Below, in pieces: positions 5,180 through 28,119 of a DNA stretch of 64,000 bases. The first letter of the stretch is position 1, and each line of letters opens with the position of its first letter. A program made the position numbers and the translations under genes. A model generated the notes under the pieces. It was given only the letters and a program-made list of their open reading frames with translations. It had not been told where the DNA came from and searched no databases. The DNA comes from Acidobacteriota bacterium (lineage in GTDB: Bacteria > Acidobacteriota > Thermoanaerobaculia > UBA5066 > Gp7-AA6). The stretch spans positions 68,611 to 132,610 of the forward strand of contig DAHUXD010000054.1 of assembly GCA_027307335.1 (NCBI GenBank), read 5' to 3'.

Positions 5180-6148
5180 CTACCGGGAAACTTGTCCCTT
5201 GCCGTCCACGCAGGCGATCCACCGGTCGGGCGCCAGCGGATGCGCATCGACCGTGTGCATGCGGTCGCGGTTCCATCCGGATCCCGAGGGGCCGACGACC
5301 GGACCGTCGCCGGCCGCCGACTCCTCGTAGCCGGTCTCGTCGAGCCGCCGAACCTCGAACGCGTAGACCTGCCGTCCGTACGCGCTTTCGTCGTCCTGCG
5401 CGAAACGAAGAACGTGGTCTGTCATGGCGAGGACCCGGCCTCCGGGCCGGGAGATCCGGGTGTTTCGCCGCACGATCGGGTTCGCCGGATGCGGAGTCCA
5501 CGGCCCCCGAAGCGCATCGGCGTAGTAGAGGAGGAGATCGCTGTTCTCGGGCGTCGAGGTGAACATCCACCACCGGTCTCGATACCGGACGAGCGAGGAG
5601 TCGACGAAGGGCTTGCCGGAGAGAAGCGTCGTATCGAGCGCCCACTGATCGGGGAACCGGGTGGCTCGATAGAGGCGCACCGCGCCGGCCTCGTAGGTCT
5701 CCGGCACCATGTAGACGTCGGCTCCGTCTTCGAACACGTACGGATACGAAAGGTGGAACGGCTCACGGAGCACGATGCGCTCGTACCGGAAGCTCCGGCC
5801 GTCGGTGCTCGTCGCGACCCCGATGCATCCTCTTTTCGTCGCCGTGTCCATCACCTCGAAAAAGAGGTACCACGTCGAGCCCCGCCGCAGCATGAAGGGA
5901 TCGGCCACGAACTCCGCCCGCACGTCGGTGACGTCGTACGAGGAGAGGACCGGATTGGACGTCGACGTGGCGGGCCCGAGCCGGAGCGGAGAGACGCCTT
6001 CGAAAATGCCGATGGACCACTGGGAGCGCCGCGCTTCCCGATCGGCGCGCACCCGGCGCTCGTGAAGGAAGAGCGCCGCGATGCCGGCGGACACGACGAC
6101 GACCGCGGCGAGCCGTCCCAATTCGGAGCGGCGCCGAGCCGCGTTCAC
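5180..6148 (-). CDS. Membrane-anchored five-bladed beta-propeller protein (GINT1-N/GH43-like fold)
   Basis: A 322-residue protein starting at GTG 6148, which overlaps the TGA of the esterase gene by four bases. A signal anchor (about residues 12-28) is followed by a propeller resembling the N-terminal domain of plant glucosamine inositolphosphorylceramide transferase and GH43-like propellers. Supporting motifs are FVADPFMLRRG, WYLFFEVMD, SYPYVFEDG and MVPETYEAG. Such domains occur beside glycosyltransferases and formyltransferases in polysaccharide loci. The acidic residues in ADPF and FED could be active-site residues if it is a glycosidase, but that is unproven. Its operon partners are an upstream exported esterase and a downstream membrane glycosyltransferase, which suggests glycan handling in the periplasm. 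Confidence 0.7.
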   Translation of the reverse strand: MNAARRRSELGRLAAVVVVSAGIAALFLHERRVRADREARRSQWSIGIFEGVSPLRLGPATSTSNPVLSSYDVTDVRAEFVADPFMLRRGSTWYLFFEVMDTATKRGCIGVATSTDGRSFRYERIVLREPFHLSYPYVFEDGADVYMVPETYEAGAVRLYRATRFPDQWALDTTLLSGKPFVDSSLVRYRDRWWMFTSTPENSDLLLYYADALRGPWTPHPANPIVRRNTRISRPGGRVLAMTDHVLRFAQDDESAYGRQVYAFEVRRLDETGYEESAAGDGPVVGPSGSGWNRDRMHTVDAHPLAPDRWIACVDGKGQVSR

Positions 6149-8817: not shown

Positions 8818-10248
8818 TCAGGGCAGGCGCACTCCACGGGCCTGCGAAGCCGCCCAGGACATTCCGCAGACCGCGGCGAGCGCCGGGAGCGCGGTCAGAG
8901 AGCTCGTCGCGGGTCCGCCCAGGCTCGCGAGCGCCCAGAAGAGAAGCGCTCCGAATCCGGCCAGTGCCGTGGCGCTTTCCTCGCGGTGCCGCTGGGAGCG
9001 CCACGCGCGCCCGAGGAGAACGAGGAACGAGAGAATCACGATCGTCGCGAGTGCCGCACCGGCGATCCCGCCGGTGACGAGCAGTTCGAGGAAAGCCGAA
9101 TCGGCGCGCGCCACCAGTCCCGGAAGCTCGCGAGGCTGCTCCCGGCGAAACGCGTCGGGAAACGTGCCGAGGCCGGACCCCACGTACGGAAACTGCCGGA
9201 AGGAGTCGATCGCGACCGTCCAGGTCGTCGGCATCGCGGGAAGTTTCGTCTCCACGCTGTCGCCGTCCGGATTCGGCCGGGCCACGAGCGCGGAGCCGGC
9301 GGTGATGGCGAGCGCCGCGACGACGACGGCGCGGCGGGCGAAGGCTGAGCCCCGCCGGCGGAACGAGAAGGCCAGGAGAACGAGGATGGCAAGACTCGCC
9401 GCGAGCGTCGCACTCGTCACGCCGCATAGAAGGAGTCCGGCCGCCGCGACGAGGAAGAGGGCGGCGCGGATCGCGATTGGCGAGACGCGGCGCTCGAACC
9501 GTTCCGCGGCGTCGGGGCTGTCGGCACCGCGGTCGGCGTTGGTGAGGATTTCCGCCCAGAGGGAGGCGAAAGCCACGCAGAGCCCGATCCCGAGAAAAGC
9601 CGCCGGAGCATCGGCGGCGCGCGGCGCCGTGTCTGCGGTCCCGGACCGGTTCAGCGCGGGAAGGACCAGGACGAGTGTCGTCAGGGTCGCCGACACGATC
9701 ACGGCTCCCGCGAAGAATCGCCGCCGCGAGCGGGAGCGCAGAAGAGAGACAGAGGCTAGGAAAACTGCGATTCCCGCGGCCAGGTCGAGCACCGCCGAGG
9801 CCGTCTCCCAGGGGGCGATCGAGATGCGCGGGGCGGGCCCGGTCTGCCGGAACCCACCCAGGATTCGGGCCGTTTCGTGGTAAATTTGGAGGTTCACGGG
9901 GGCAATTCGAAGCAGGAGTCCCTCCGGGAGCGGAAGGAGCTGAGCAACGCCTAGCAGCGTGAGGCACCCCAGAGCTCCCAGGGGAAGCCTTATCGGTCGG
10001 GTTTCGAGCAGTGCGGAGCGGGAAAGCAGGGCGGCCGCGGCCGTCAGGAAGGCGAGACAGTGGAGCAGGGTGCCGCCGGTCGGCGCGTAGCCGCGCCCGG
10101 CCGGCGTCCCGAGAACTGCAATGGCGACGAGGAACGGTTGCGTGAGAACGAGGATGAGCAGCAGGACGAAGGCCGCCCGGTCGAGCAGGTCCGAATCGTC
10201 GGGCCCGAAGACCCGTTTCGCGAGAAGGCCGAATCCATGAGAGCTCAG
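8818..10248 (-). CDS. O-antigen ligase/polymerase-like membrane protein (Wzy_C family)
   Basis: A hydrophobic protein of about 476 residues with ten or more membrane segments. A large loop contains SFRQFPYVGSGLGTFPDAF, the pattern of the Wzy_C (O-antigen ligase/polymerase) domain, whose periplasmic loop binds the glycan. It could polymerise repeat units or ligate chains to an acceptor. The start is unclear because no in-frame ATG, GTG or TTG lies near the first membrane segment. A CTG at 10248 is preceded by GGAAGGGAAAGG seven bases upstream and is my choice. It would overlap the divergent TPR gene by 12 bases. The alternative upstream ATG at 10428 would run antisense through the TPR gene and encodes nothing membrane-like. 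Confidence 0.72.
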   Translation of the reverse strand: MSSHGFGLLAKRVFGPDDSDLLDRAAFVLLLILVLTQPFLVAIAVLGTPAGRGYAPTGGTLLHCLAFLTAAAALLSRSALLETRPIRLPLGALGCLTLLGVAQLLPLPEGLLLRIAPVNLQIYHETARILGGFRQTGPAPRISIAPWETASAVLDLAAGIAVFLASVSLLRSRSRRRFFAGAVIVSATLTTLVLVLPALNRSGTADTAPRAADAPAAFLGIGLCVAFASLWAEILTNADRGADSPDAAERFERRVSPIAIRAALFLVAAAGLLLCGVTSATLAASLAILVLLAFSFRRRGSAFARRAVVVAALAITAGSALVARPNPDGDSVETKLPAMPTTWTVAIDSFRQFPYVGSGLGTFPDAFRREQPRELPGLVARADSAFLELLVTGGIAGAALATIVILSFLVLLGRAWRSQRHREESATALAGFGALLFWALASLGGPATSSLTALPALAAVCGMSWAASQARGVRLP

Positions 10249-11577
10249 CGGCGCACCTTTCCCTTCCTGCTGGCGGTCGTGCTGGGAATGATGCCATCGG
10301 TGGCCTCTCTCGTCGCGGACGATTTCAACCAGGATCGGCTGCGCGACGGAGAGAATGCCTACGCGGCCAGGCGCTATGCCGAGGCCATCGATCAGTTCCG
10401 GATCGCGGCGTTCGGGACGCTCGACCATCCTCCGCTCTTCAGCGAGTGCCTGGTCCGGCTGACGCTCGCGGAATCGGCGGCGAACAAATCCACCGATGCT
10501 TTGGCGACGATCGAACGTTTCCTGGACCTCGAGCGCCGCTTCCCGAGCTATGCGAAGGCAAACCTGCAGCCCGAGACTCGATCGGCGTTCCAGGCGCTCC
10601 TGTTCGCGAAGGTTCCCCAGGCCACGATTCTCTCCGTGCCGTCGCTGGCGGGGCTCATCGAAACCAATGAACAGAAGATCGCGAAGCTGCCGCCGGAATC
10701 GCGACGCAAGGCGCTCGAGGCCGAAGCGCGGCGAGAGCCGACGAACCCGGCGTGGCCGAGGGACCTCGCGGCGGAGGCGCTCGAGCGGGGGGATGCGAAA
10801 GACGCCGAGAAGTGGGCGACCAAGGCGCTGTCGCTCCAGCCCTCCAACGCCGAAGCGTTGGCGCTACGGGCCCGGTCGCGTTACGAACGGCGGCTGTACG
10901 CCGACGCGCTGACCGATCTCTCGGCCCTTCCCGCCGACGTGTTCGAGCGGCATCCCGATCTCTACGCCGAGAAGTTCGTGTGTCTGGTCGACGCGCGCCG
11001 ATTCGACGAGGCCGAGAGGATCGCTGGCCGGATCCCCGAGACGAGTGCCGCGCGTCCCGAAATCGCGAAGGCGCGCACCGATCTTGCGGCCGAACAGCGC
11101 CGGACCGCGCCGGCCTCGAAAGCCAGGTCCGCGCCCGCCGGCACCGAGTCCGCGTCGTCCCGTCAGACATCGGCTCCGGCGGCTTCGGCCGTTCCGGCTC
11201 CCGTGGCGCCGTCCGATCCCGCGCGCAGCCAGGCGGCGCTCGATGAGAGCCGGCGTCTCATTCTCGCGAGCCGTGCCGGCGACGCCGAGAAGGTGCTCGA
11301 CGAGGCGATCCGGAACGATCCAGGCAACCGGGAGCTGCGGCTGGCGTTACTCGAGGCGGCCTGTCTCGATCGTTCGTATCCGACGGGCGCGGCCCAGGTG
11401 GCTCTGGTCAAGCCGTTCACGCCGAGCGAAGGCCCGGCGATGTTCTACGCGGCGGTCGTGCTCTACGAGACCGGAAGGGTCGACGAGGCGCGTGCCTACC
11501 TAAAGCAGGCGATGCCCAGCGTCTCGGGCCCGCTCGTCGACGAATACTCGAAGAAGATCCTCGGCGCGACGCAGTGA
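10237..11577 (+). CDS. Exported TPR protein of the polysaccharide export module
   Basis: A 446-residue protein with a signal peptide (MRAQRRTFPFLLAVVLGMMPSVAS) followed by TPR-like helical pairs. Examples are AYAARRYAEAIDQFRIAAF, DAEKWATKALSLQPSNAEALALRARSR and RVDEARAYLKQAMP. A low-complexity Ala/Pro/Ser linker at roughly 290-330 splits the repeats into two blocks. TPR proteins next to an outer-membrane barrel and Wza/Wzc genes commonly scaffold secretion, as AlgK does for AlgE, and an assembly or docking role in the periplasm is inferred here. It is first of a 34-gene plus-strand run, and 13 bases separate it from the beta-barrel gene. ATG 10237 was chosen because the signal peptide begins there. 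Confidence 0.75.
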   Translation: MRAQRRTFPFLLAVVLGMMPSVASLVADDFNQDRLRDGENAYAARRYAEAIDQFRIAAFGTLDHPPLFSECLVRLTLAESAANKSTDALATIERFLDLERRFPSYAKANLQPETRSAFQALLFAKVPQATILSVPSLAGLIETNEQKIAKLPPESRRKALEAEARREPTNPAWPRDLAAEALERGDAKDAEKWATKALSLQPSNAEALALRARSRYERRLYADALTDLSALPADVFERHPDLYAEKFVCLVDARRFDEAERIAGRIPETSAARPEIAKARTDLAAEQRRTAPASKARSAPAGTESASSRQTSAPAASAVPAPVAPSDPARSQAALDESRRLILASRAGDAEKVLDEAIRNDPGNRELRLALLEAACLDRSYPTGAAQVALVKPFTPSEGPAMFYAAVVLYETGRVDEARAYLKQAMPSVSGPLVDEYSKKILGATQ

Positions 11578-11590
11578 TGAGGGCAGAGCC

Positions 11591-12874
11591 ATGAGACAGG
11601 TCGCCCGGCTGGGCGTTGCCCTGGCCCTCGGCCTCGCAGCCGTGCCGACGGTGCAGGCTCAGTTTCTCGAGAACGACGAGGTCCCCCGCGAGCGGACGAT
11701 TCCCGAGAAGCAGCAGATCGACGACATGCTGGCGAGCTCGAAGCTCAGCTTGGGGCCGATCCGCCTGCTGCCCTCGGTCTCGATCACCAACGCGGGCTAC
11801 GACAGCAACGTCTTCTCGACGACGCCGGCCGTCGCGGACTGGACGGCCACGTTCGTGCTCGGCAGCACGTTCCTCGTGCCGATGGGCACCAAGATGTACT
11901 TTCTCGCCGACGTCTTTCCCCATTACACCTGGTACGACAAGCTGAACGACCGCAATCGGTGGGGAGGCACGTTCGATGGCGCGATCCTGGGCTTCTTCAA
12001 CCGGGCGAGCTTTCAGGCCAAGGGGCTGGACCGCCAGGACTACACCCTGTACAGCTCGGAGTTCCCGTCGTACGTCTTCGAGAGTCTCCTTAGCGGAACC
12101 GCCAACGCCGAGATCGACCTGACGCATCACTTGTCGCTCTTCGCCAGCGGCGGATATCAGGAAGTCCGTTACACCCAGTACTCGGGCCCTCCGATCCAGG
12201 ATTTTCAGGTCAAGCTGAACAACAGCAACGACACCGAGGTCCGCGGCGGGGTGCGATACACCATCAACGAAAACTGGAACGTCGCCGGGATGGTCGAACA
12301 GGTGTGGTCGGACTTCCAGTTCGTGCCCGGCACTCGCGACAACAAGAGCACGGCCTACCTCGGCTCGATCTTCTTCAGCGTACCCAGGCTCTACCTGAAC
12401 GTCATCGCTGGGTATCGAGAAGGGGTCGCGACGAACGGGTCGACCTTTCCCGATTATCAGACGGGCGTCGGCTCCTTCTTTCTTTCGTTCTACCCACTCC
12501 GCTGGATCGAGCTCCAGGGCTACGGCCATCGCAAGGTGCAATACAGCATCGACGTGTTCGAGCCCTACTTCTTCGACAACAAGGTCGCGTTTGCTGCGAA
12601 TATCGAGCTGTTCGACCACGTTCTCGTCAAAGGCCTCATCGAGGACGGGCCGAATACTTATCCGGTGCCCGAGCCGGTGAGCGGAGGAGGGAGCGTCGCT
12701 CGAGTGGATCACGTCAAGAACTACGGTGGAGGCGTCTCGATCAAGCTGCCGGCGCGCATCGTGCTCACGGGTCTCGTGACCCGGCAGGTCTATACTTCGA
12801 ACATCCCGGGCGACAGCCGCGACTATCTTCGCTTTACGGCGTTTTTCAACTTTACCGGGACGTACTCTCGATGA
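11591..12874 (+). CDS. Outer-membrane beta-barrel protein (possible Wzp-type polysaccharide porin)
   Basis: A 427-residue protein with a clear signal peptide (MRQVARLGVALALGLAAVPTVQA). The rest is alternating-hydrophobicity strands rich in Tyr, Trp and Phe, for example HYTWYDKL, SIFFSVPRLYLNVIAGYRE and SFYPLRWIELQGYGHRK. It ends in strand-like FTAFFNFTGTYSR, and the strand count by eye suggests a barrel of about 16-18 strands. Its place directly before a Wza-type gene, with a 4-base ATGA overlap, suggests an export role. In Myxococcus the Wzp barrel forms the outer-membrane exit for a Wza protein lacking its own outer-membrane helix. An equivalent role here is inference. Confidence 0.75.
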   Translation: MRQVARLGVALALGLAAVPTVQAQFLENDEVPRERTIPEKQQIDDMLASSKLSLGPIRLLPSVSITNAGYDSNVFSTTPAVADWTATFVLGSTFLVPMGTKMYFLADVFPHYTWYDKLNDRNRWGGTFDGAILGFFNRASFQAKGLDRQDYTLYSSEFPSYVFESLLSGTANAEIDLTHHLSLFASGGYQEVRYTQYSGPPIQDFQVKLNNSNDTEVRGGVRYTINENWNVAGMVEQVWSDFQFVPGTRDNKSTAYLGSIFFSVPRLYLNVIAGYREGVATNGSTFPDYQTGVGSFFLSFYPLRWIELQGYGHRKVQYSIDVFEPYFFDNKVAFAANIELFDHVLVKGLIEDGPNTYPVPEPVSGGGSVARVDHVKNYGGGVSIKLPARIVLTGLVTRQVYTSNIPGDSRDYLRFTAFFNFTGTYSR

Positions 12875-13707
12875 AGCGCTCGACGAGATGGTGGGCCGGC
12901 CTCTTCCTCGCTGCGTGTCTGGTGCGGCCCGCCGCGGCCCAGGAAACCGGGGACTACGCGATCGGTCCGAAGGACCTCCTCGACATCCGCGTGCTCGAGC
13001 TTCCGGAGATCTCGGCCGATCGCCGCGTCTCGGATGACGGAACGATCGACCTGCCCATGGTCGGCCAGGTTCCCGTGGCCGGCATGACCGCTGCCGAGGT
13101 CCGGTCGCGCATCGAGACGCTGTTGAGCTCCAAGTACCTCAACCGAGCCACCGTCATCGTCAACGTCAAGGAGTTCAACAACAAGCCCGTCTCGGTCCTC
13201 GGCGCGGTCCAGAAGCCCGGGTCGCTGAGCATCTCCGGCCGGTGGACGCTCATCAAGGCGATCACGGCCGCCGGCGGACTGACCGAGCGGGCCGGGCGCA
13301 AGATCCTCGTCCTCCGGCGCGCCGACAACGGACTGTCGGACACGCTCGAGATCAGCACCCAGGACCTCTTCCAGAGCGCGACCGCCGTCTGGAACATTCC
13401 GATCCTGCCGTCCGACGTCATCAACGTCGTCCCACGCTCGACCTTCACGGTGTTCTGCCTCGGCGAGGTCAAGGGCTCGGGAGCGCTGCAGTTCGAGAGC
13501 GAGGACCGCCTCACCCTCCTGTCGGTCATCGCGAAGGCGGGCGGCCTGACGGATCGCGCGTCCAAGAAGATCCGCATCAAGCGGCGCGGCGCCGACGGCA
13601 AGGATACGGAGTTCGTCGTGGATTACGGCCGTGTCCTCTCCGGCGACGTCCCGGATCCGGAGATCCAGCCCAACGACGTGATCGTCGTCAAGGAGTCGTT
13701 CTTCTGA
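12871..13707 (+). CDS. wza: Polysaccharide export protein, short Wza/OPX type
   Basis: A 278-residue exported protein. Its signal sequence contains LAAC at residues 13-16, a plausible lipobox, although RPAAAQ offers an alternative signal peptidase I site. The poly-export domain follows (YAIGPKDLLDIRVLELPEI, DGTIDLPMVGQVPVAGMT), then two SLBB-type repeats, each with a GxVxxPG- or GEVKGSG-like element and a LTLLSVIAKAGGLTDRA-like helix. E. coli Wza is about 380 residues and ends in an amphipathic helix that forms the outer-membrane pore. This protein stops after NDVIVVKESFF and has no such helix. It therefore probably spans only the periplasm and docks to a separate barrel. The start overlaps the barrel gene (ATGA). 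Confidence 0.9.
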   Translation: MKRSTRWWAGLFLAACLVRPAAAQETGDYAIGPKDLLDIRVLELPEISADRRVSDDGTIDLPMVGQVPVAGMTAAEVRSRIETLLSSKYLNRATVIVNVKEFNNKPVSVLGAVQKPGSLSISGRWTLIKAITAAGGLTERAGRKILVLRRADNGLSDTLEISTQDLFQSATAVWNIPILPSDVINVVPRSTFTVFCLGEVKGSGALQFESEDRLTLLSVIAKAGGLTDRASKKIRIKRRGADGKDTEFVVDYGRVLSGDVPDPEIQPNDVIVVKESFF

Positions 13708-15965
13708 TGGCCGAGCAGTTCGAATCCTTCGACGAGGGCGGGACGCCCGAGAGCCAGCGCCCCGAGGTCCACCTGAAAGACTACTGGGACATCGTCGTCA
13801 AACGGCGGCGGCTGATCCTGCTCTCCCTGGGGCTCGCGCTCGTGGCCGCCGTCGCCTTCACGTTGCTGACCAAGCCCGTCTACAAAGCGACCGCCGTGCT
13901 CGACGTCGTGCGGCAGCGAACGAACCCGATCGGGTTCGGCGCGAACCAGGACACGGGAGCGGACCCGGATTTCCTTCCGAGCCAGATCCAGCTCATGCAG
14001 AGCCGCGAGGTTGCCGAACGCGTCGTCCGCAAGCTGAATCTCCTGGCCGATCCGGATTTCAACCCGAAGCACTACCAGCACTACAAGCCGAACTCCCAGG
14101 GCGTCGCCGCGAAGCCGTCCGAGGACGACATCATCGACGCGGCCGTCGACGTGCAGGGCAACATTGACGCGCAGATCGTCCGGCCCACGACGCTGGTTTC
14201 GCTGAACTACGACGCGCCGAGCGCCCGGCTTTCGGCGGCGGTCGCCAATGCGATCGCCGAGGCCTACATCGCCTGGAACGTCGAGTCCCGCTACAAGATA
14301 ATGGGAGAGTCGTCGCAGTTCCTCGCGGCGCAGATCGAGCAGGCCAAGGCGGAAGTGGATGCGAAGGAGAAGGAGCTGGTGGCCTACAGCCGCCAGAAGG
14401 AGATCGTTTCTTCGGACCCCTCGGTCAACACCGCGACGCAGAAGCTCGCATCGCTCTCGGCCGACCTCGCCACGGCGACCGCGGACCGCGTCGCGAAGGA
14501 AGCGCACTACGACGAGGTGCGGAACACGTCCGCCGACACTCTGGCCGACGTCGCTTCCGGCGGCGCCCTGGGCCAGCAGCGGGCCGACCTCCAGAAGATG
14601 GAGCGCGACTACGCCGACAAGCTCAACATCTACAAGCCCGAGTGGCCGGCGATGCAGCAGCTCAAGGCGCAGATCGACGACGCGCGCAAGAGCTTCAATG
14701 CCCAGAAGTCGGAAGCGGCCAACCGCGCGATCGACGCTGCGCGCACGGAGTACCTGACCGCGCTTCGTCGCGAGGAAAACCTCAAGGGCATGGCGAAGTC
14801 GCAGCGCACGGAGGCGCTCTCTACGGGCAACGACGCGATCGAGTACCGAAACCTTCGGGTCGAGATCGACACGAAGCGCGCGCTCCTCGACAACCTTCTC
14901 CGTCAGCAGGGGGAGACCGAGGTCGTCTCGCGGCTGCGCGACGAGTCGCTCACGGCCGTTCGCATCGTCGACCGCGCGCTGCCGCCGGGCGAGCCTTTCA
15001 AGCCGAACCTCAAGAAGAATCTTCTCATCGCGGCCTTTGGAGGGATCGGCATCGGTGTCGGACTCGCTTTCCTATTGTCGTCTCTCGATCGGAGCCTCCG
15101 CACGCCCGAGCAGGTCGAGCAGTTCCTGCAGCTGCCGGCCCTCGGCGTGATTCCCGCCGTGGTCGCGACGGGAACGGGCAAGCCGAAGCGGCGGGGCTTC
15201 CTCCGGCGCAAGTCGGTGGATGCCGCGAACGAGGAGAAGAGCGCCATCGACCTGCTGCCGTACGCCGAGCCGCGCTCCATGGTGGCGGAGACCTATCGCG
15301 CCTTCCGGACGGCGCTGCTTCTCTCCCGCGCGGGCGGCGTGCGCTCCGTCGTCGTGACCTCGAGCTTCCCGGAGGAGGGCAAGACGGCCACGGCCGTCAA
15401 CCTCGCCGTCGTCCTCGCTCAGCTCGGGCGTCGGGTGCTCCTCGTCGACGCGGACCTCCACAAGCCTCGCGTCCACGAAGTGTTCCACGTGTCCAACCGC
15501 GTCGGGCTCGTGTCGGTCCTCGCGGAGAACCTGGAGCCCTCGCGCGCGATCGTCAAGACGAACCACGCCGGAGTCTTCGTCGTGCCGGCCGGCCCGGAGA
15601 CGCCCAACCCGTCGGGACTGCTCTCCTCGGACGCGATGCAGAAGTTCATGGAGCTCGCGGCGACGAATTTCGACTACGTGGTCGTCGATACGCCTCCGGT
15701 CCTGCTCGTTTCGGACACACTCGTCTTCGCGCAGCAGACCGACGGCATCCTGCTCTGCGTCCGTGGCGGCGTGACGCCGCGGGATCAGGTCATCCGCGCC
15801 CGCGACCGGATTCTCCGGGCGGGCGCCTCGATCCTGGGAGTTCTGATCAACGCGCTCGACCCGGAACCGGGCAGCTACTATTACAAGCCATACACCTACG
15901 AGTACGGGAGCGAGCGGCGCGAGCCCGAGGTTCCGGCGGAAGCGCGCACCGTCCAGGGCCTCTAG
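13707..15965 (+). CDS. wzc: Wzc-type chain-length regulator and tyrosine autokinase (PCP-2a)
   Basis: A 752-residue inner-membrane protein. It contains a Wzz domain with TM1 at about 35-56, a periplasmic coiled-coil region and TM2 at about 435-458. A cytoplasmic BY-kinase follows, with Walker A (SFPEEGKTATAVN, about 553-565), Walker A' (VLLVDADLHKPR) and Walker B (YVVVDTPPV). The C-terminal tail has a Tyr cluster (SYYYKPYTYEYG, about 721-732), the expected autophosphorylation site. Phosphorylation cycling controls polymer length and export. Walker A carries EEG where most relatives have GEG. The gene starts at TGATG with the Wza stop, and the phosphatase gene follows by 10 bases. Confidence 0.93.
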   Translation: MAEQFESFDEGGTPESQRPEVHLKDYWDIVVKRRRLILLSLGLALVAAVAFTLLTKPVYKATAVLDVVRQRTNPIGFGANQDTGADPDFLPSQIQLMQSREVAERVVRKLNLLADPDFNPKHYQHYKPNSQGVAAKPSEDDIIDAAVDVQGNIDAQIVRPTTLVSLNYDAPSARLSAAVANAIAEAYIAWNVESRYKIMGESSQFLAAQIEQAKAEVDAKEKELVAYSRQKEIVSSDPSVNTATQKLASLSADLATATADRVAKEAHYDEVRNTSADTLADVASGGALGQQRADLQKMERDYADKLNIYKPEWPAMQQLKAQIDDARKSFNAQKSEAANRAIDAARTEYLTALRREENLKGMAKSQRTEALSTGNDAIEYRNLRVEIDTKRALLDNLLRQQGETEVVSRLRDESLTAVRIVDRALPPGEPFKPNLKKNLLIAAFGGIGIGVGLAFLLSSLDRSLRTPEQVEQFLQLPALGVIPAVVATGTGKPKRRGFLRRKSVDAANEEKSAIDLLPYAEPRSMVAETYRAFRTALLLSRAGGVRSVVVTSSFPEEGKTATAVNLAVVLAQLGRRVLLVDADLHKPRVHEVFHVSNRVGLVSVLAENLEPSRAIVKTNHAGVFVVPAGPETPNPSGLLSSDAMQKFMELAATNFDYVVVDTPPVLLVSDTLVFAQQTDGILLCVRGGVTPRDQVIRARDRILRAGASILGVLINALDPEPGSYYYKPYTYEYGSERREPEVPAEARTVQGL

Positions 15966-15975
15966 CACCCCCGGC

Positions 15976-16728
15976 TTGATCGACATCCATTTCCACTGCC
16001 TCCCGGGGCTGGACGACGGCCCGTCGAACTGGGACGAGGCGGTGGCGCTGTGCCGGGCGGCGGCGGCAGACGGCGCCACCCGCCTGATCGCGACGCCGCA
16101 CGTTCTGCGGGGCGAGTGGATCAACGAGGATGTCGACGCGCGCGACGATCTCGTTCTGCGGCTGAACACTCTTCTCGAAGGATCGCCCGCGATTCTCCCC
16201 GGCTGTGAGTACCTCTTCTCGACGGAGGCCCTCGCTCTCCTCGATCATGGAACGGCCGGGCCTCTGATCGGGCTCAACCGATCGCGCTACCTGCTCGTGG
16301 AGCTGCCGGCGGAGGTGTCTCAGGCGTCGGTCGAGGCGGCGTTTCACGAGTTCGGAGTCGGGGGAATCACTCCCGTGATCGCGCATCCCGAGCGTCACCC
16401 GGCGCTGCGACGCTCTCCAGAACGACTCGCGCGTCTGGTCTCCCGCGGCGCGCGCTGCCAGGTGACCGCGGGAAGTCTCCTCGGCGACTTCGGCGAGCGG
16501 GCGGCCGACGCGGCCGACGAGTTCTTCCGGATGGGTCTGGTCCATTTCGTGGCGTCGGACGCACACAGCCTCGGCCGCCGTCCTCCGCGGCTTGCGGCCG
16601 CGCGCGAGCGCGTCCGGAGGGCGTGGGGCGCCGAGGCCGAGCAGGGGATCTTCGAAGCGAATCCGGCCGCGCTCCTCGTCTCCGAGCCGATTCCCTGGAC
16701 GCCTCCGGCGCGAGCGGTCCGTGGCTGA
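15976..16728 (+). CDS. CpsB/YwqE-type PHP-domain tyrosine-protein phosphatase
   Basis: A 250-residue cytoplasmic metal-dependent phosphatase of the PHP superfamily. Metal-ligand motifs include DIHFHCLPGLDDG (residues 3-13), ATPHVL, PGCEY, VIAHPERH and VASDAHS, all in the canonical order. It should dephosphorylate the Tyr tail of the adjacent Wzc-type kinase, as CpsB and YwqE do for their BY-kinases. The start is TTG at 15976, ten bases after the kinase stop. No other in-frame start precedes the first HxH motif. It overlaps the next gene by eight bases. Confidence 0.92.
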   Translation: MIDIHFHCLPGLDDGPSNWDEAVALCRAAAADGATRLIATPHVLRGEWINEDVDARDDLVLRLNTLLEGSPAILPGCEYLFSTEALALLDHGTAGPLIGLNRSRYLLVELPAEVSQASVEAAFHEFGVGGITPVIAHPERHPALRRSPERLARLVSRGARCQVTAGSLLGDFGERAADAADEFFRMGLVHFVASDAHSLGRRPPRLAAARERVRRAWGAEAEQGIFEANPAALLVSEPIPWTPPARAVRG

Positions 16729-17518
16729 GCCGCCGACCGTCGGGCCTGCTCCCAGCCGCGCCGGGCTCGTCCTCCGGCCCATGGGCGGGCACCGGCGCGT
16801 CCTCTCGGGAACGCTCTGCCTGCTGCTCGCGGCCGCCAGCGGATTGCTGGGGTCACGAGATCGGGCGCTCCGTTCGGACGGGCGGAGGCTGCTCGGAGAA
16901 GTCGGCATGGCCGCGGCGCCCGCCGACCTGGCGATCGGTACGCTCGCCTCGGGAGATCTGGCTCTCTCCTTCGCGGTGTCCACGGCGCTCTCGGAGCTCG
17001 CGCCCGAGGGCGACGCCGCCGGCGCCGCCGCACAGCTCGGGCGCGACACGCGTCCGATGCTGGGAGAAACCGTGCGGCTCGCCGCCTCTTACGTCTCGAT
17101 CCGTCCGGCGTCGGCCTACGGCCGGCTGCTCCTCGGCCAGGCGGGGCAGGCACTGTGGGACCTGGCGGGGGGCCAGTCGACGCAATCCGCCGAAGCGTGG
17201 CGCCGTGCGTTCGAGGGGGCGAGATCGGCGGCGCCGGGCTTCGACATGGTTGCCACGACCGAAGCGGCGACGTATCTGGCGGCGTGGCCCCGTCTGACCG
17301 CTGCCGATCGCGAGCAGGCCATGAACGTGATCGCGGAAGGCCTGCGCACTCGCGAAGGCGCCCGGCGGCTCTTCCCGGACGCCTGGAGAAAGCTCGGCAC
17401 CGCATCCCTGCGGCTTCTCCCGAACGCCCCCGACGTCCTGGCGGAGAGCGCGGAATGGCTACGTGCGGTGGGCCAGACCGGCGCGGCGAGCGCGCTCGAA
17501 TCGCGGCGGCCCCGCTAG
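16721..17518 (+). CDS. Membrane-anchored helical protein of unknown function
   Basis: About 265 residues from GTG 16721, or 245 from ATG 16781. I do not recognise the family. A hydrophobic segment (VLSGTLCLLLAAASGLLG) near the N-terminus looks like a signal anchor. The rest is Ala/Leu-rich and probably all-helical, with repeat-like stretches such as LGETVRLAASYVSIRPASAYGR and LTAADREQAMNVIAEGLRT reminiscent of degenerate TPR units. The GTG start overlaps the phosphatase stop by eight bases, so translation is probably coupled. Its position between the kinase/phosphatase pair and the antiterminator suggests an accessory export or assembly protein, but no function can be assigned. Confidence 0.6.
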   Translation: MAEPPTVGPAPSRAGLVLRPMGGHRRVLSGTLCLLLAAASGLLGSRDRALRSDGRRLLGEVGMAAAPADLAIGTLASGDLALSFAVSTALSELAPEGDAAGAAAQLGRDTRPMLGETVRLAASYVSIRPASAYGRLLLGQAGQALWDLAGGQSTQSAEAWRRAFEGARSAAPGFDMVATTEAATYLAAWPRLTAADREQAMNVIAEGLRTREGARRLFPDAWRKLGTASLRLLPNAPDVLAESAEWLRAVGQTGAASALESRRPR

Positions 17519-17533
17519 CGCTCTCCGCCGCGG

Positions 17534-17542
17534 TGTTATACT
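17534..17542 (+). promoter_or_regulatory. Extended -10 promoter ahead of the antiterminator gene
   Basis: TGTTATACT matches the extended -10 form TGn-TATAAT at five of six hexamer positions. No clear -35 is present, which is common for extended -10 promoters. Transcription would begin near 17549 and give a leader of about 65 bases before TTG 17616. This would start a second transcription unit inside the long plus-strand run, where the intergenic gap widens to about 97 bases. Confidence 0.5.
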
Positions 17543-17584
17543 AGCCCTTCAAGCTGTAAGATCCTGTTGCTCCAGTGGGATACC

Positions 17585-17608
17585 TCCTTCCGGGGCGCAG
17601 AGCAAGGA
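17585..17608 (+). promoter_or_regulatory. Possible ribosome-site-sequestering hairpin
   Basis: TCCTT (17585-17589) is fully complementary to the AAGGA ribosome site (17604-17608) of the antiterminator gene, seven bases before its TTG start. The stem is only five pairs with a 14-base loop. It is therefore a candidate for translational tuning, not a demonstrated structure. Confidence 0.25.
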
Positions 17609-17615
17609 CGAGCCA

Positions 17616-18200
17616 TTGCCGCTTCTCAAACGCGGTCCGGAGATCCATCCTCCGGCCCTGCTCGACGCCGATCAGAATTTCGCGCCCTGGTTTGTCGCCT
17701 ACACGCGCGGCCGCCAGGAGAAGGCGCTCGCCCGGCACCTTCTCCCCCTGGGAGTCCCCTTCTACCTGCCTCTGTCCGAGAAGGTGACCCGGCGCCCGGG
17801 ACGGACCCTGACCTCGTACCTGCCGCTCTTTCCGGGCTACGTCTTTCTGCGGGGTGGTCCGGTCGAGAGGATCGCGGCCCTGCGAAGCAACTTGATCGTT
17901 CGAGTCCTCGAGGTCGCCGACCAGAGCCTGCTCGGAGAAGAACTGAGATCGCTGCGGCGCCTCCAGCTGGCGGGAGCGGACCTTTCGCCGCTGCCGTTTT
18001 TCGCGGCCGGAGACCCGGTGCGGGTGACCGCGGGTCCCTTTTCCGGATGCCTGGGGACGGTGTTGCGGGAGCACGGGCATCGGCGTCTGGTCGTGTCGGT
18101 ATCGATCCTGCAGCGGTCGGTCGCGGTCGAGCTCGACCGGGAGAGCGTGACCGCCGCATCGACGAAGCTCGAGTCGGTTCGGGGCGCCGCCGTCGCGTAG
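17616..18200 (+). CDS. NusG-paralogue transcription antiterminator (RfaH/UpxY/LoaP-like)
   Basis: A 194-residue protein with an N-terminal NGN domain (PWFVAYTRGRQEKALARHL, YLPLFPGYVFLR, residues about 24-110). A C-terminal KOW domain follows (GDPVRVTAGPFSGCLGTV, RRLVVSVSILQRSVAVEL, about 130-180). Specialised NusG paralogues bind RNA polymerase and let it read through long polysaccharide operons. It is too divergent and too embedded to be the housekeeping NusG, and no secE/rplK neighbours are present. The start is TTG 17616 with AAGGA seven bases upstream; frames further upstream are not family-like. It stands first in a 28-gene, 34-kb run that it probably regulates. A hairpin at 18233-18259, just after the gene, is a candidate recruitment signal. 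Confidence 0.88.
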   Translation: MPLLKRGPEIHPPALLDADQNFAPWFVAYTRGRQEKALARHLLPLGVPFYLPLSEKVTRRPGRTLTSYLPLFPGYVFLRGGPVERIAALRSNLIVRVLEVADQSLLGEELRSLRRLQLAGADLSPLPFFAAGDPVRVTAGPFSGCLGTVLREHGHRRLVVSVSILQRSVAVELDRESVTAASTKLESVRGAAVA

Positions 18201-19659: not shown

Positions 19660-20637
19660 ATGAACGAAACCTCGCAGCTGGCCTCGCACGCGGCGCTCGT
19701 CACGGGCGGCGCCGGTTTCATCGGCTCGCATCTCGTCGACGCTCTATTGTCGCTCGGCGCGAAGGTCCGGGTTCTCGACGATCTCTCCAACGGAAAGTTC
19801 GAGAATCTCGATCACGTCTCGAACCGGATCGAGTTCATCGAGGGAGACATCCGGGACGCGGGTGTTTGTCGCGCCGCCTGCGAGGGAATGGACGTCGTCT
19901 TCCATCAAGCCGCACTCGGCTCGGTGCCGCGCTCGATGAAGGACCCGGCGACCAGCCTGGCCGTCAACGTGGGCGGCACCGCGAACATGCTGGCCGCGGC
20001 TCGCGACGCAGGCACGCGGCGCTTCGTGTACGCCTCGTCCTCGAGCGTCTACGGGGACAGCGCGCGTCTTCCCAAGCGGGAGGGGGAGGAGGGGCGGCCC
20101 CTCTCTCCGTACGCGCTGTCGAAGGTCATGGACGAGCAGCTCGCCGAGGTTTTCGGCCGCTGCTACGGCCTCGAGCTCGTCGGCCTGCGGTACTTCAACG
20201 TCTACGGTCCGAGGCAGGATCCCGACGGGCCCTATGCCGCCGTGATTCCCCGGTTCTTCAAGGCGTACCTGGAAGGATCGGCGCCCGTGATCTACGGCGA
20301 CGGCGAGCAGAGCCGGGACTTCACGTACGTGAGCGACGCGGTTGCGGCCAACCTGCTGGCGGCCGTCGCCGCCCCGGCGGCGGCCGGAAAGGCGTACAAC
20401 GTGGCCGGCGGCAACCGCACGTCCGTCAACGTCCTCGCACACGCCGTGCGCAAGGCTGTCGGAGGCGGTCCGGATCCGACCTACGAGGCGCCGCGGCCGG
20501 GCGACGTCGCGCACTCCGCCGCGGACCTCTCGGCCGCACGGCGCGAGCTCGGCTTCGAGCCGCGCGTCGGTCTCGCGGAGGGACTGGAGATGTCGCTGAC
20601 CCACTACCGCCGCGCCGTCGGAGCCGAGACCTCGTGA
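19660..20637 (+). CDS. wbpP: UDP-N-acetylglucosamine(uronate) 4-epimerase, WbpP type
   Basis: A 325-residue extended SDR. It shows TGGAGFIGSHL at the N-terminus, HQAALGSVPRSMKDP, YASSSSVYGD (catalytic Ser), SPYALSK (Tyr about 152, Lys about 156) and LRYFNVYGPRQDPDGPYAAVIPRF. The GSVPRS and RQDP-GPYAAVIP elements are hallmarks of the WbpP/TviC group, which interconverts UDP-GlcNAc and UDP-GalNAc or their uronic acids. With the dehydrogenase upstream it should yield UDP-GalNAcA or a similar donor. ATG 19660 was chosen over the TTG immediately before it. The stop overlaps the GTG of the next gene by four bases. Confidence 0.88.
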   Translation: MNETSQLASHAALVTGGAGFIGSHLVDALLSLGAKVRVLDDLSNGKFENLDHVSNRIEFIEGDIRDAGVCRAACEGMDVVFHQAALGSVPRSMKDPATSLAVNVGGTANMLAAARDAGTRRFVYASSSSVYGDSARLPKREGEEGRPLSPYALSKVMDEQLAEVFGRCYGLELVGLRYFNVYGPRQDPDGPYAAVIPRFFKAYLEGSAPVIYGDGEQSRDFTYVSDAVAANLLAAVAAPAAAGKAYNVAGGNRTSVNVLAHAVRKAVGGGPDPTYEAPRPGDVAHSAADLSAARRELGFEPRVGLAEGLEMSLTHYRRAVGAETS

Positions 20638-21947
20638 GCCACACCGCCATCCGGGTGCGGGGCCTCGGCAAGGAGTACTCGATCGGCGCGAAGGCCGAGC
20701 GCTACAAGACCCTTCGGGAATCCCTCGCCTCGATGTTCACCGCTCCGGCGCGGCTCCTCCGGCTGTCGGGAAAGCGCCGGGAGGAGGAGAGAGTCTGGGC
20801 GCTCCGCGACGTAACCTTCGAGGTGCGCCGCGGGGAAGTCGTGGGCGTGATCGGCCGGAACGGCGCGGGGAAGAGTACGCTCCTGAAGATTCTCTCCCGC
20901 ATCACCGACCCGACCACGGGGATGGCGGAGATCCACGGCCGCGTCGGGTCGCTGCTCGAGGTCGGCACCGGATTCCACCCCGAGCTGACCGGCCGCGAGA
21001 ACATCTACTTGAACGGCGCGATTCTCGGGATGCGGCGGTTCGAGATCGATCGCAAGTTCGACCAGATCGTCGCGTTTTCCGAGATCGAACAGTTCATCGA
21101 CACGCCCGTCAAGAAGTACTCGAGCGGCATGTATCTGCGCCTGGCGTTCGCGGTCGCGGCGCACCTGGAGCCCGAGATACTCCTGGTCGACGAGGTCCTC
21201 GCCGTCGGCGACGCGGACTTCCAGAAGAAATGCCTGGGCAAGATGGGCGACGTGGCGCGCGAGGGCCGGACGGTCCTGTTCGTCAGCCACAACATGCCGG
21301 CGGTTCAGGCGCTGTGCAACCGCGCGATTCTGCTGCGGCACGGCACGGTGGCTCTCGACACCGACGTGGGGGAGGTGCTTCGCGAGTACCTGGGCTATCT
21401 CGCGGCCTCTTCGCCGGACGCCTTTCGCAACAATCCCGACCGCAGCGGCGACGGGTCCGTGCGTCTGACCGCGGGGCGCATTCTCGACGACCGGGGACGA
21501 ACGGTCGAGCGCCTGGTGGCGGGCGCTCCGGCCACCTTCGAGTTCTCTTACGAGAACCCGACCAGGACTGATCGGATCGAGTTCCTCGCGACGATCATCA
21601 ACCACCTCGGAATCTCCGTGACGCACTTCAACACGAGCGTTTCCGGCTTCGTGATCCGCGGGCTCGGCTCGACCGGAATCATCGCGTGTCAGATTCCGAA
21701 CATGCCCCTGCCTCGCGGCGAATACCGGGTCGCGGTCGCCGTCAAGCGCGGGGGAAGCACGGCGGACCACATCCCGAACGCGCTGACGTTCAGCATCGAG
21801 AGCTCGACTTTCTTCGAGTCGGGGAAGCTGCCGCCGATCCAGCACAGCGCCTGCCTCGTCGCCCACGAGTGGGATCACCGGGCCGGCGAACGAGCGGCGG
21901 CGGTCGAGGCGTCCGAGACGAAATCCCCTGGGGTGTTGAAAGGATGA
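20634..21947 (+). CDS. wzt: Polysaccharide ABC exporter ATPase with C-terminal glycan-binding domain (Wzt-like, first copy)
   Basis: A 437-residue protein. The ABC domain has Walker A GRNGAGKST (about 74-82), signature YSSGM (about 162), Walker B ILLVDE (about 182) and a switch His in VSHN (about 218). An extra C-terminal beta-sandwich-like domain spans about 265-430 (FEFSYENPTRTDRIEF, HFNTSVSGFVIRG, PRGEYRVAVAVKRG). In Wzt that domain recognises a cap on the finished glycan. It starts at GTG 20634, overlapping the epimerase stop by four bases. No permease gene adjoins it, because the only Wzm-like gene is seven genes downstream beside a second Wzt. It may share that permease or recognise a different chain end. 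Confidence 0.9.
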   Translation: MSHTAIRVRGLGKEYSIGAKAERYKTLRESLASMFTAPARLLRLSGKRREEERVWALRDVTFEVRRGEVVGVIGRNGAGKSTLLKILSRITDPTTGMAEIHGRVGSLLEVGTGFHPELTGRENIYLNGAILGMRRFEIDRKFDQIVAFSEIEQFIDTPVKKYSSGMYLRLAFAVAAHLEPEILLVDEVLAVGDADFQKKCLGKMGDVAREGRTVLFVSHNMPAVQALCNRAILLRHGTVALDTDVGEVLREYLGYLAASSPDAFRNNPDRSGDGSVRLTAGRILDDRGRTVERLVAGAPATFEFSYENPTRTDRIEFLATIINHLGISVTHFNTSVSGFVIRGLGSTGIIACQIPNMPLPRGEYRVAVAVKRGGSTADHIPNALTFSIESSTFFESGKLPPIQHSACLVAHEWDHRAGERAAAVEASETKSPGVLKG

Positions 21948-26027: not shown

Positions 26028-27274
26028 CGCGCGCGCTCGCCGGAGCCGAGGGCGATTTCATGGACACGCGGGCGGGCGCATTTCGGCCCCACGTCGTCCA
26101 CGTCGTCGGGACCGCGGGGGCCGGAGGCGTCCAGAGCCTCGTGCTCGATTTCGCGACGTCGGCCCCCGGACGCCGCTATCGGCACAGCCTGCTCTGCCTC
26201 TTCGGAGCGGACGACGATTTCGCTCGACGGTTTCGGGACGCGGGGATGACGGTCGAAGAGTGCTCCGTGCCGTGGCCGGATTCGCTGTCGCTCGGCTCGT
26301 ATCGCGCCTCGCGCTGGCTGCGACAGCGGCTGACGTTCACCTTCCCGCGCCGGCTCGCTCGCGTGCTGCGAAGGCTCGAGCCCGACCTCGTCCACACGCA
26401 CATCGCCCACCGCATCGATCTGCAGGCCGAGGGCATCCTCCGTCGGGCGCGGCTGCCGTTCGTCTGGACCATCCACGGCCAGTACCGGCCGGAGGGGCGC
26501 GAGCTCGCCCGCTGGCGCCACGCCATCCGGCTCGCTGCGGAAGGGCCGGGCGCCGTGACGGCGGTGGCGGAGGAGCTCGCGAAGGACTTCCACATGCGCG
26601 GGCTCGATCATCCCGACGGTGTCGCGGTGACGCGCGGGGGCGTGGACCTGTCGCGCTTCCGGCAACGCCGGCCGGCCGACCCGGCGTGGCGCGGCAAGAA
26701 CGGCATCCCAGCCGATGCGCTCCTCTTCGGCGCCGCCGGACGCCTCGTCCAGGAGAAGGCCTACGAGATCTTCATCCGGGCGGCGCGGCGCATCCCGAAA
26801 GAGCGCGGGGTCCATTTCGCGATCGCCGGAGCGGGACCGCTCAAGGAATCCCTTCGGAAAGAGATCGCCCGGGCGGGGCTCAAGGACCGGTTTCACCTCG
26901 TCGGTCTGACGGAGGACGTTCCGCATTTCCTCGGCCAGCTCGACGTGTTCGTCCTGTCGTCCCGCTTCGAGGGATTTCCGATCGCGATGCTCGAAGCCCT
27001 GGCCGCCGGGTTGCCGGCGATCGCGACGCCCGTCGGAGGCGTGCCCGAGATGCTCGGCCGCGACGGAGGCCTGATCGTGGCGCGCGAGTCCGAGGACGAG
27101 CTGGCCGCGGCGCTCGAGGCGATGCTCGACCCCGAGGCGCGCCGCGCCTTCGCCGCCCGCGGGCCCGCGCTCGCCGAGCGGTTCTCGATCGAACGCTCCG
27201 CCGAAAACTTCACCCGACTGTACGCGCGCCTTCTGGCGCGCGCGGAGAACGCGAAGGAAGGTCATCCATCATGA
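26024..27274 (+). CDS. GT4-family glycosyltransferase
   Basis: A 416-residue GT-B fold enzyme. The N-terminal domain has GTAGAGGVQSLVLD and VHTHIAHRIDLQ. The nucleotide-binding C-terminal domain begins near AAGRLVQEKAYEIFIRAA. The EGFPIAMLE motif (E-x7-E) binds the donor sugar nucleotide and marks family GT4, a retaining transferase. Donor and acceptor are not predictable. It starts at ATG 26024, overlapping the deacetylase stop by four bases, and its own stop overlaps the ABC permease start in the same way. This suggests coupled translation with the exporter. Confidence 0.88.
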   Translation: MTRALAGAEGDFMDTRAGAFRPHVVHVVGTAGAGGVQSLVLDFATSAPGRRYRHSLLCLFGADDDFARRFRDAGMTVEECSVPWPDSLSLGSYRASRWLRQRLTFTFPRRLARVLRRLEPDLVHTHIAHRIDLQAEGILRRARLPFVWTIHGQYRPEGRELARWRHAIRLAAEGPGAVTAVAEELAKDFHMRGLDHPDGVAVTRGGVDLSRFRQRRPADPAWRGKNGIPADALLFGAAGRLVQEKAYEIFIRAARRIPKERGVHFAIAGAGPLKESLRKEIARAGLKDRFHLVGLTEDVPHFLGQLDVFVLSSRFEGFPIAMLEALAAGLPAIATPVGGVPEMLGRDGGLIVARESEDELAAALEAMLDPEARRAFAARGPALAERFSIERSAENFTRLYARLLARAENAKEGHPS

Positions 27275-28119
27275 GCTCGATCGCCCGCACGGGACCCGAT
27301 GTTTCCACCATCGTCATCGAGCCGAGCCGCGGCTGGATCGGGCTCAGGCTCCGCGAACTCTGGGAGTACCGGGAGCTCCTCTACTTCCTCGTCTGGCGCG
27401 ACATCAAGGTTCGCTACAAGCAGACGGCACTCGGAGCGGCATGGGCGATCATCCAGCCGTTCTTCTCGATGGTCATCTTCAGCCTGTTCTTCGGCAAGCT
27501 CGCCAAAATGCCGTCCGACGGCATTCCATACCCGATCTTCGCGTATGCCGCGCTGGTGCCGTGGACCTTCTTCGCCAACGGTCTGTCGCAGTCGGCGAAC
27601 AGCCTCGTCGACAGCGCGAACCTGATCCGGAAGATCTACTTTCCGAGGTTGACGATCCCGATCGCCAACGTCCTCGCCGGGCTCGTGGACTTCGCGCTGG
27701 CCTTCGCGGTGCTCCTCGGAATGATGGCGTGGTACCACATCTACCCGAGTGCGCGCCTGGTCTGGCTGCCTCTGTTTCTCCTGCTCGCGCTCGTAACCGC
27801 GCTGGCGGTCGGTCTCTGGCTCTCGGTCCTGAACGTCGAGTACCGCGACGTCCGTTACACGGTTCCCTTCATCACCCAGTTCTGGATGTTCGCCACGCCC
27901 ATCGTCTACCCGAGCAGTCTCCTGAGAGAGCCCTGGCGCACGATCTACGGGTTGAATCCGATGGTCGGCGTCGTCGAGGGATTCCGCTGGGCGCTCCTCG
28001 GAACGAAGACCGCCCCGGGCCCGGCCATCGCGGTGTCGGCGGGCGCGGCGCTCGTCCTGCTCGTGGGCGGCGCGTTCTACTTCCGGCGCATGGAAAAGAC
28101 TTTCGCGGACGTGGTCTAG
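27271..28119 (+). CDS. wzm: Polysaccharide ABC exporter permease (Wzm/TagG type)
   Basis: A 282-residue inner-membrane protein with six predicted membrane segments. The N-terminal amphipathic region RELLYFLVWRDIKVRYKQTALGAAWAIIQP is diagnostic of ABC-2 type glycan exporters (KpsM/Wzm/RfbA). Further typical features are NLIRKIYFPR, VLNVEYRDVRY and a C-terminal NPMVGVVEGFRWALLG. It moves lipid-linked glycan across the inner membrane with a Wzt ATPase. The Wzt copy at 28130 follows directly, and another Wzt at 20634 has no permease of its own. It is the only permease of this kind in the window. Confidence 0.93.
   Translation: MSSIARTGPDVSTIVIEPSRGWIGLRLRELWEYRELLYFLVWRDIKVRYKQTALGAAWAIIQPFFSMVIFSLFFGKLAKMPSDGIPYPIFAYAALVPWTFFANGLSQSANSLVDSANLIRKIYFPRLTIPIANVLAGLVDFALAFAVLLGMMAWYHIYPSARLVWLPLFLLLALVTALAVGLWLSVLNVEYRDVRYTVPFITQFWMFATPIVYPSSLLREPWRTIYGLNPMVGVVEGFRWALLGTKTAPGPAIAVSAGAALVLLVGGAFYFRRMEKTFADVV

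Follow-up and report, generated by a model that had tools for sequence, protein, structure and literature searches.

The stretch of DNA analysed here (the window; 64,000 nucleotides, contig positions 68,611-132,610, G000:C63:68611-132610, of an Acidobacteriota bacterium genome of 4.37 Mb that is 96.5% complete) carries at positions 10237-16728 a set of five genes. They code, in this order, for an exported tetratricopeptide repeat (TPR) protein, an outer-membrane beta-barrel, a short Wza-type outer-membrane polysaccharide export (OPX) protein, a Wzc-type co-polymerase and a CpsB phosphatase (Table 1). The set is read, with a probability of about 0.8, as a composite OPX/beta-barrel polysaccharide translocon of the VpsN/VpsM and EpsE/EpsL type. 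Such an arrangement is not new in kind: it was reported in 2022 as a third system of export that is widespread. The window set is a real and well-supported member of this recently described class, and the comparative evidence for it is strong. The direct basis of the assignment is the order and overlaps of the genes, the missing OPX helix, the predicted barrel topology and the finding that barrel and OPX genes are very strongly linked and co-occur. Ring formation, docking and passage of the polymer are deduced from what has been published on EpsX/EpsY, Wza and VpsM/VpsN. In this scheme a polymer synthesized in the periplasm would be passed on by the Wzc-type co-polymerase/kinase, which would drive polymerization while being cycled by the CpsB phosphatase, and be taken up by a ring of D1D2D2 OPX subunits. 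This ring, devoid of a membrane-spanning helix of its own, would dock beneath a single 18-strand barrel that would provide the outer-membrane pore in place of the missing helical pore.

The five genes had been listed in an earlier note on this DNA and all are found in their places. They read as one operon because of their spacing: the TPR gene leads the gene run and ends 13 bp ahead of the barrel gene, the barrel stop and the OPX start share the sequence ATGA (12871-12874; the overlap that the note had described as translational coupling), the OPX stop and the Wzc start overlap by one base (TGATG), and the TTG start of CpsB lies 10 bp past the end of Wzc. The OPX protein is composed of a Poly_export domain and two SLBB stretches, with no further family at E<=0.1. 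It aligns to Wza as far as the D3 region while the C-terminal Wza_C helix is absent. The protein stops in ...DVIVVKESFF, with which the final strand of the second SLBB region closes, and nothing follows, neither an amphipathic pore helix, as the note had remarked of this 278-residue protein, nor any other membrane helix. The same is found in relatives that were collected via the barrel and not via the OPX protein: in 30/30 the OPX open reading frame (ORF) stops 0-1 residues past the domain, mostly with ...KESFF. A second set of 80 OPX proteins, retrieved from named genomes with peptide patterns, ends 0-2 residues past this position, but it is less independent since one search pattern spans the C-terminal end. 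The conserved hydrophobic last residue, at the point from which the pore helix of Wza extends, may contact the barrel. The gene is the single Poly_export gene found in the genome, and the best NCBIfam match of its product is EpsE (E 5e-39, below the cut-off).

The outer-membrane barrel proposed in the note is borne out by an AlphaFold2 model built on 35 homologues, and the protein is not a small one. Of the two findings that the note had named as refuting its reading, a small non-porin protein and a membrane-spanning helix at the Wza C-terminus, neither was obtained. The model features 18 long transmembrane strands (residues 57-422) connected by short loops on both sides. Alternating residues give the strands a hydrophobic outer (lipid) face and a polar lumen that is nearly charge-neutral (13 K/R, 15 D/E). 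An 11-residue periplasmic helix (residues 39-49) precedes strand 1 and there is no plug domain. Extended plug loops of the kind described for AlgE or PelB are likewise missing from the model, which would leave the short helix or the OPX ring as possible gates. The window barrel sequence alone has no Pfam or NCBIfam family at E<=0.1 and no match in a sequence search of the PDB, its profile retrieves only weak OmpX/Ail hairpins from PDB sequences, and a search of its own genome with PF10082 finds nothing. Because of the latter the family assignment rests on relatives, of which 18/35 match BBP2_2 (best 3.4e-19) and 12/35 match EpsL (TIGR03014). A single-sequence search detects the barrel in 60/396 genomes of the phylum; a search of viral contigs gave no confirmed relatives.

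Barrel and OPX genes are linked across 120 related genomes. A barrel gene is found directly upstream (within 2.6 kb, same strand) of 64/77 full-length OPX genes and of 0/17 shorter OPX paralogues, which are D1D2-like with ~150-190 aligned residues. Both genes are present in 66 genomes, OPX only in 5, the barrel only in 1 and neither in 48 (Fisher 1.5e-26, uncorrected for ancestry). The barrel thus occurs in 66/71 OPX-bearing genomes versus 1/49 of those without OPX, and this lone barrel-only genome is 81% complete. An independent scan of named genomes, ascertained through OPX, found the barrel directly upstream in 60/73 loci with enough sequence. The named relatives belong to Thermoanaerobaculia, Holophagae, Aminicenantes and other Acidobacteriota, with weaker matches in Burkholderiales. 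These data make an independent, quantified case for the recent proposal that helix-less OPX proteins export via a partner barrel, with a linkage that is specific to the full-length helix-less OPX genes and lacking for shorter paralogues of the same class. A barrel family of Acidobacteriota that otherwise lacks annotation also gains a probable function from them. Note that the 17 loci with the second, shorter D1D2-like OPX type (e.g. G014:C377, G390:C15) are from the same class and never adjoin a barrel of the window type. Two other loci (G008:C4 and G022:C21; L170 and L171) carry OPX-Wzc-CpsB and the TPR gene in genomes with no detectable barrel of the window family; their OPX proteins likewise have no C-terminal helix.

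The third export system was defined by Schwabe 2022 (PMC9601211) as a short OPX protein (limit 280 aa; D1D2 or D1D2D2) with an 18-strand barrel; EpsX and EpsY are reported to interact, and mutual binding and stabilization of barrel and OPX, both required for export, characterize the system. The study lists 453 OPX/barrel pairs in 10 phyla, VpsN/VpsM of Vibrio cholerae being an example, and the modelled OPX proteins above 250 aa are D1D2D2. In every defining trait open to sequence analysis and structure prediction the window set agrees with this system: it shares with it an OPX protein of 278 aa that is D1D2D2 and has no C-terminal membrane helix, a barrel gene located within five genes (here adjoining, with the ATGA overlap and 18 predicted strands), a polysaccharide co-polymerase nearby and further polysaccharide genes in the vicinity (Wzz fused to a bacterial tyrosine kinase (BY-kinase), Wzy_C, glycosyltransferases). 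It differs in that one class of Acidobacteriota has, in addition, a linked gene for an exported TPR protein, and in that the putative OPX lipid anchor is not conserved. In Myxococcus xanthus the pairs WzaX/S/B and WzpX/S/B (EpsY/EpsX, ExoA/ExoB, WzaB/WzpB; PMC9603273, PMC9601211) also have a helix-less OPX protein beside an 18-strand barrel. These barrels were named Wzp by Saidi 2022 (PMC9603273), who reported their sequence family only from myxobacteria. The Myxococcus OPX proteins are D1D2 lipoproteins of ~190-220 aa, whereas the window protein is a longer D1D2D2. The likeness to a Myxococcus Wza/Wzp pair drawn in the earlier note holds for the short helix-less OPX protein with a dedicated barrel. 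The OPX domain content differs, and the barrel family resembles BBP2_2/EpsL. In the EpsE/EpsL pair of XrtB/PEP-CTERM exopolysaccharide clusters (TIGR03028/TIGR03014) both partners have possible counterparts here, the OPX protein by its best match and the barrel by 12 of its 35 homologues. The window barrel itself, however, does not match EpsL, and the EpsL matches of its relatives are not established above the curated cut-off.

Other explanations of the OPX protein and of the barrel were weighed. A class-1 Wza truncated by frameshift or sequencing error found no support and has a negligible probability, since the OPX stop overlaps the Wzc start and the homologue ends refute such an origin. Because all 30 barrel-ascertained relatives end at the same point, the missing C-terminal helix is, as judged from the aligned sequences, a stable family trait and no artefact. 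The barrel could also be a Wzi-like surface anchor, with the OPX protein working alone or with another pore. Wzi is likewise an 18-strand barrel coded in polysaccharide clusters (PMC9601211, PMC9603273), but this reading is improbable: none of the 35 members of the barrel family has a Wzi Pfam match, the only element preceding strand 1 is the 11-residue helix and hence there is no plug domain, no part of the OPX protein spans a membrane and no other OPX gene was found in the genome, and the barrel is linked to full-length helix-less OPX genes only. Several points weigh against the composite translocon. The feeding pathway is ambiguous, with Wzm/Wzt ATP-binding cassette (ABC) genes and no convincing Wzx in the window. 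The Fisher test of the co-occurrence of barrel and OPX genes ignores shared ancestry, and five OPX-bearing genomes are without a detectable barrel of the window family. OPX lipid anchoring, usual in Myxococcus but not universal, is not conserved: the window protein has a lipobox-like motif (LAAC, residues 13-16), a similar one being present in 1/30 homologues. Finally, Foldseek relates the barrel to generic porins of the PDB (OccAB3, OccK2, OprD, OmpC; TM ~0.5) and not to a specific polysaccharide exporter.

The TPR protein, described as exported in the earlier note, has an amino terminus that by eye is signal-peptide-like and TPR_19/TPR_2 motifs; the mature start of its relatives is around DPFY. 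No lipobox cysteine was seen by eye in the window protein or in the homologue amino termini inspected. The AlphaFold model has a TPR block (~20-290), a disordered Pro/Ala-rich linker (~291-327) and a further TPR block (328-442). Many homologues, of 287-332 aa, are without the middle TPR block and retain both ends. Foldseek and profile searches return generic TPR superhelices. The protein scores 27 bits against PrsT (TIGR02917), whose cut-off is 312. PrsT of PEP-CTERM systems, a TPR lipoprotein (PMC1569441), is a precedent for linkage between exopolysaccharide genes and an exported TPR protein. A second copy of the TPR N-terminal block (E 9e-24) is found outside the cluster at G000:C57:14241-14699 (L189), inside a 1268-codon open frame.

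The TPR gene is present in 50 of the 120 related genomes, 48 of which also carry a D1D2D2 OPX gene. In 42/50 its distance to OPX is less than 10 kb, with both genes on the same strand in all 42; the TPR gene is downstream of OPX in 38 and upstream in 4, and its usual position is after CpsB. Among loci fetched via the TPR gene Wzc adjoins in 15/20, nearly all with CpsB too. The gene is absent from 23/71 OPX-bearing genomes and from most Aminicenantes loci. In the near relatives L086, L087, L092, L170, L186 and L188 it is divergent to Wzy_C, as in the window, while in L058 and L062 Wzy_C is divergent to the barrel gene instead. In G007 the divergent TPR-Wzy_C pair is on another contig than the barrel-OPX-Wzc-CpsB set. 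The linkage identifies the TPR gene, at the level of sequence comparison, as a genuine conserved partner of the cluster, and its product most likely works in the same pathway as a soluble protein of the periplasm, serving as scaffold to either the barrel/ring or the polymerase/ligase.

The earlier note had gone further and proposed a three-part conduit of mixed AlgK/AlgE and Wza character. Its TPR component holds as a conserved cluster partner; a role within the conduit itself is possible, and the likeness to AlgK/AlgE is not supported. The alginate exporter also combines a separate TPR protein with an 18-strand barrel (PMC9734138) but AlgK is a lipoprotein, there is no OPX protein and neither window protein has a specific fold match. 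AlgE is absent among the top 50 Foldseek matches of the barrel, as are AlgK, BcsC and the PgaA TPR domain among the top 50 of the TPR protein. The PgaA barrel ranks 13; specific kinship of the window barrel to AlgE or PgaA is not claimed, as Foldseek gives generic porins. A mechanistic analogue is PelBC of Pseudomonas aeruginosa (PMC12141448), which brings together a barrel, a TPR scaffold and a periplasmic ring in one export complex, with the TPR repeats sitting within the ring beneath the barrel. It differs in that a single chain holds both the TPR repeats and a 16-strand barrel, the ring consists of PelC instead of OPX and the system is synthase-dependent.

Two roles of the TPR protein compete. 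As a structural part of a three-part TPR/barrel/OPX exporter its superhelix would guide or gate the polymer between ring and barrel. In favour of this are the position of its gene at the head of the window's gene run, next to the barrel gene, the class-wide linkage to OPX on one strand, the docking of the PelB TPR in the PelC lipoprotein ring (PMC12141448) and the capacity of AlgK to bind alginate and to aid AlgE localization (PMC9734138). Yet the gene usually follows CpsB and does not lie beside the barrel gene, many OPX-bearing genomes do without it, two TPR-bearing genomes (G008, G022) have OPX but no detectable barrel, the protein has no lipid anchor and no specific AlgK, BcsC or PgaA likeness, and many homologues (~290-330 aa overall) lack the middle TPR block. 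A structural role is rather unlikely. The alternative, in which the protein assists the Wzy_C polymerase/ligase or takes part in processing the polymer and not in the outer-membrane step, is only slightly better placed and still tentative: it accounts for the divergent pairing with Wzy_C and for the separate contig of this pair in G007, but in most other genomes of the class the TPR gene follows CpsB codirectionally and Wzy_C is divergent from the barrel gene. A TPR/ring/barrel conduit is, by analogy with PelBC, physically possible, and the linkage data do not separate such a role from that of a polymerase/ligase partner. With the divergent TPR-Wzy_C pairing in near relatives, either the outer-membrane complex or the polymerase/ligase may be its partner. 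The co-conserved TPR protein is a lead: if it were in the conduit, the set could become a new variant. In Thermoanaerobaculia-type Acidobacteriota a soluble exported TPR protein would then be a third dedicated part that bridges OPX ring and 18-strand barrel or threads the polymer between them, a rather unlikely hybrid of OPX/barrel and TPR/barrel systems built from separate polypeptides. Such a hybrid would link OPX-based and TPR/barrel-based export, whose evolutionary relation was left open by Schwabe et al. (PMC9601211).

Table 1. Genes of the proposed translocon set and their immediate neighbours in the window (pLDDT, predicted local distance difference test; pTM, predicted TM-score).
Feature	Positions	Strand	Evidence
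Wzy_C (O-antigen ligase/polymerase family) membrane protein	8818-10236	-	Pfam PF04932 E 4.3e-09; divergent from TPR gene
Exported TPR protein, 446 aa	10237-11577	+	Pfam TPR_19 2.9e-13, TPR_2; AlphaFold pLDDT 91.2, pTM 0.59
Outer-membrane beta-barrel, 427 aa, 18 predicted strands	11591-12874	+	AlphaFold pLDDT 88.8, pTM 0.84
OPX (Wza-type) protein, 278 aa, D1D2D2	12871-13707	+	PF02563 (Poly_export) 1.7e-21, SLBB x2
Wzc-type co-polymerase fused to BY-kinase, 752 aa, Tyr-rich tail	13707-15965	+	Wzz 3.1e-11, AAA_31 1.2e-11
CpsB/CapC-type phosphatase, 250 aa, TTG start	15976-16728	+	PF19567 (CpsB_CapC) E 1.8e-46
265-aa protein, hydrophobic N-terminal segment, overlaps CpsB end	16721-17518	+	no Pfam match
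NusG/RfaH/UpxY-type antiterminator	17616-18200, start uncertain (17463-17616)	+	NusG PF02357 3.9e-08

The start of the Wzy_C gene that precedes the set is uncertain, its ORF continuing to 10428. The Wzc-type protein matches the NCBIfam-type profiles TIGR01005 (1.5e-74) and TIGR01007 (above the cut-off). The 265-aa protein coded after CpsB has no Pfam match and no tblastn match among the collected loci. It is followed by the antiterminator, which matches NF033644 UpxY (2.3e-20) under the cut-off of that model and probably regulates the long polysaccharide cluster.

Wzc, CpsB and two Wzy_C proteins suggest that the translocon is fed by a Wzx/Wzy pathway. The window also codes, at 20634-21947, 27271-28119 and 28130-29449, for two ATPases of the Wzt type, bearing Wzt_C domains, and a permease of the Wzm type. 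The Wzx/Wzy and the ABC routes are both candidates: PF01943 has no match in the genome and the single match of the flippase family PF13440 is on another contig. Next to the Wzc/CpsB set, the Wzt/Wzm genes may give the cluster an additional glycan export route of ABC type or may belong to a shared one. On the opposite strand, the product of 5180-6148 strongly matches the N-terminal domain of glucosamine inositolphosphorylceramide transferase 1 (PF24793; 3.1e-63).

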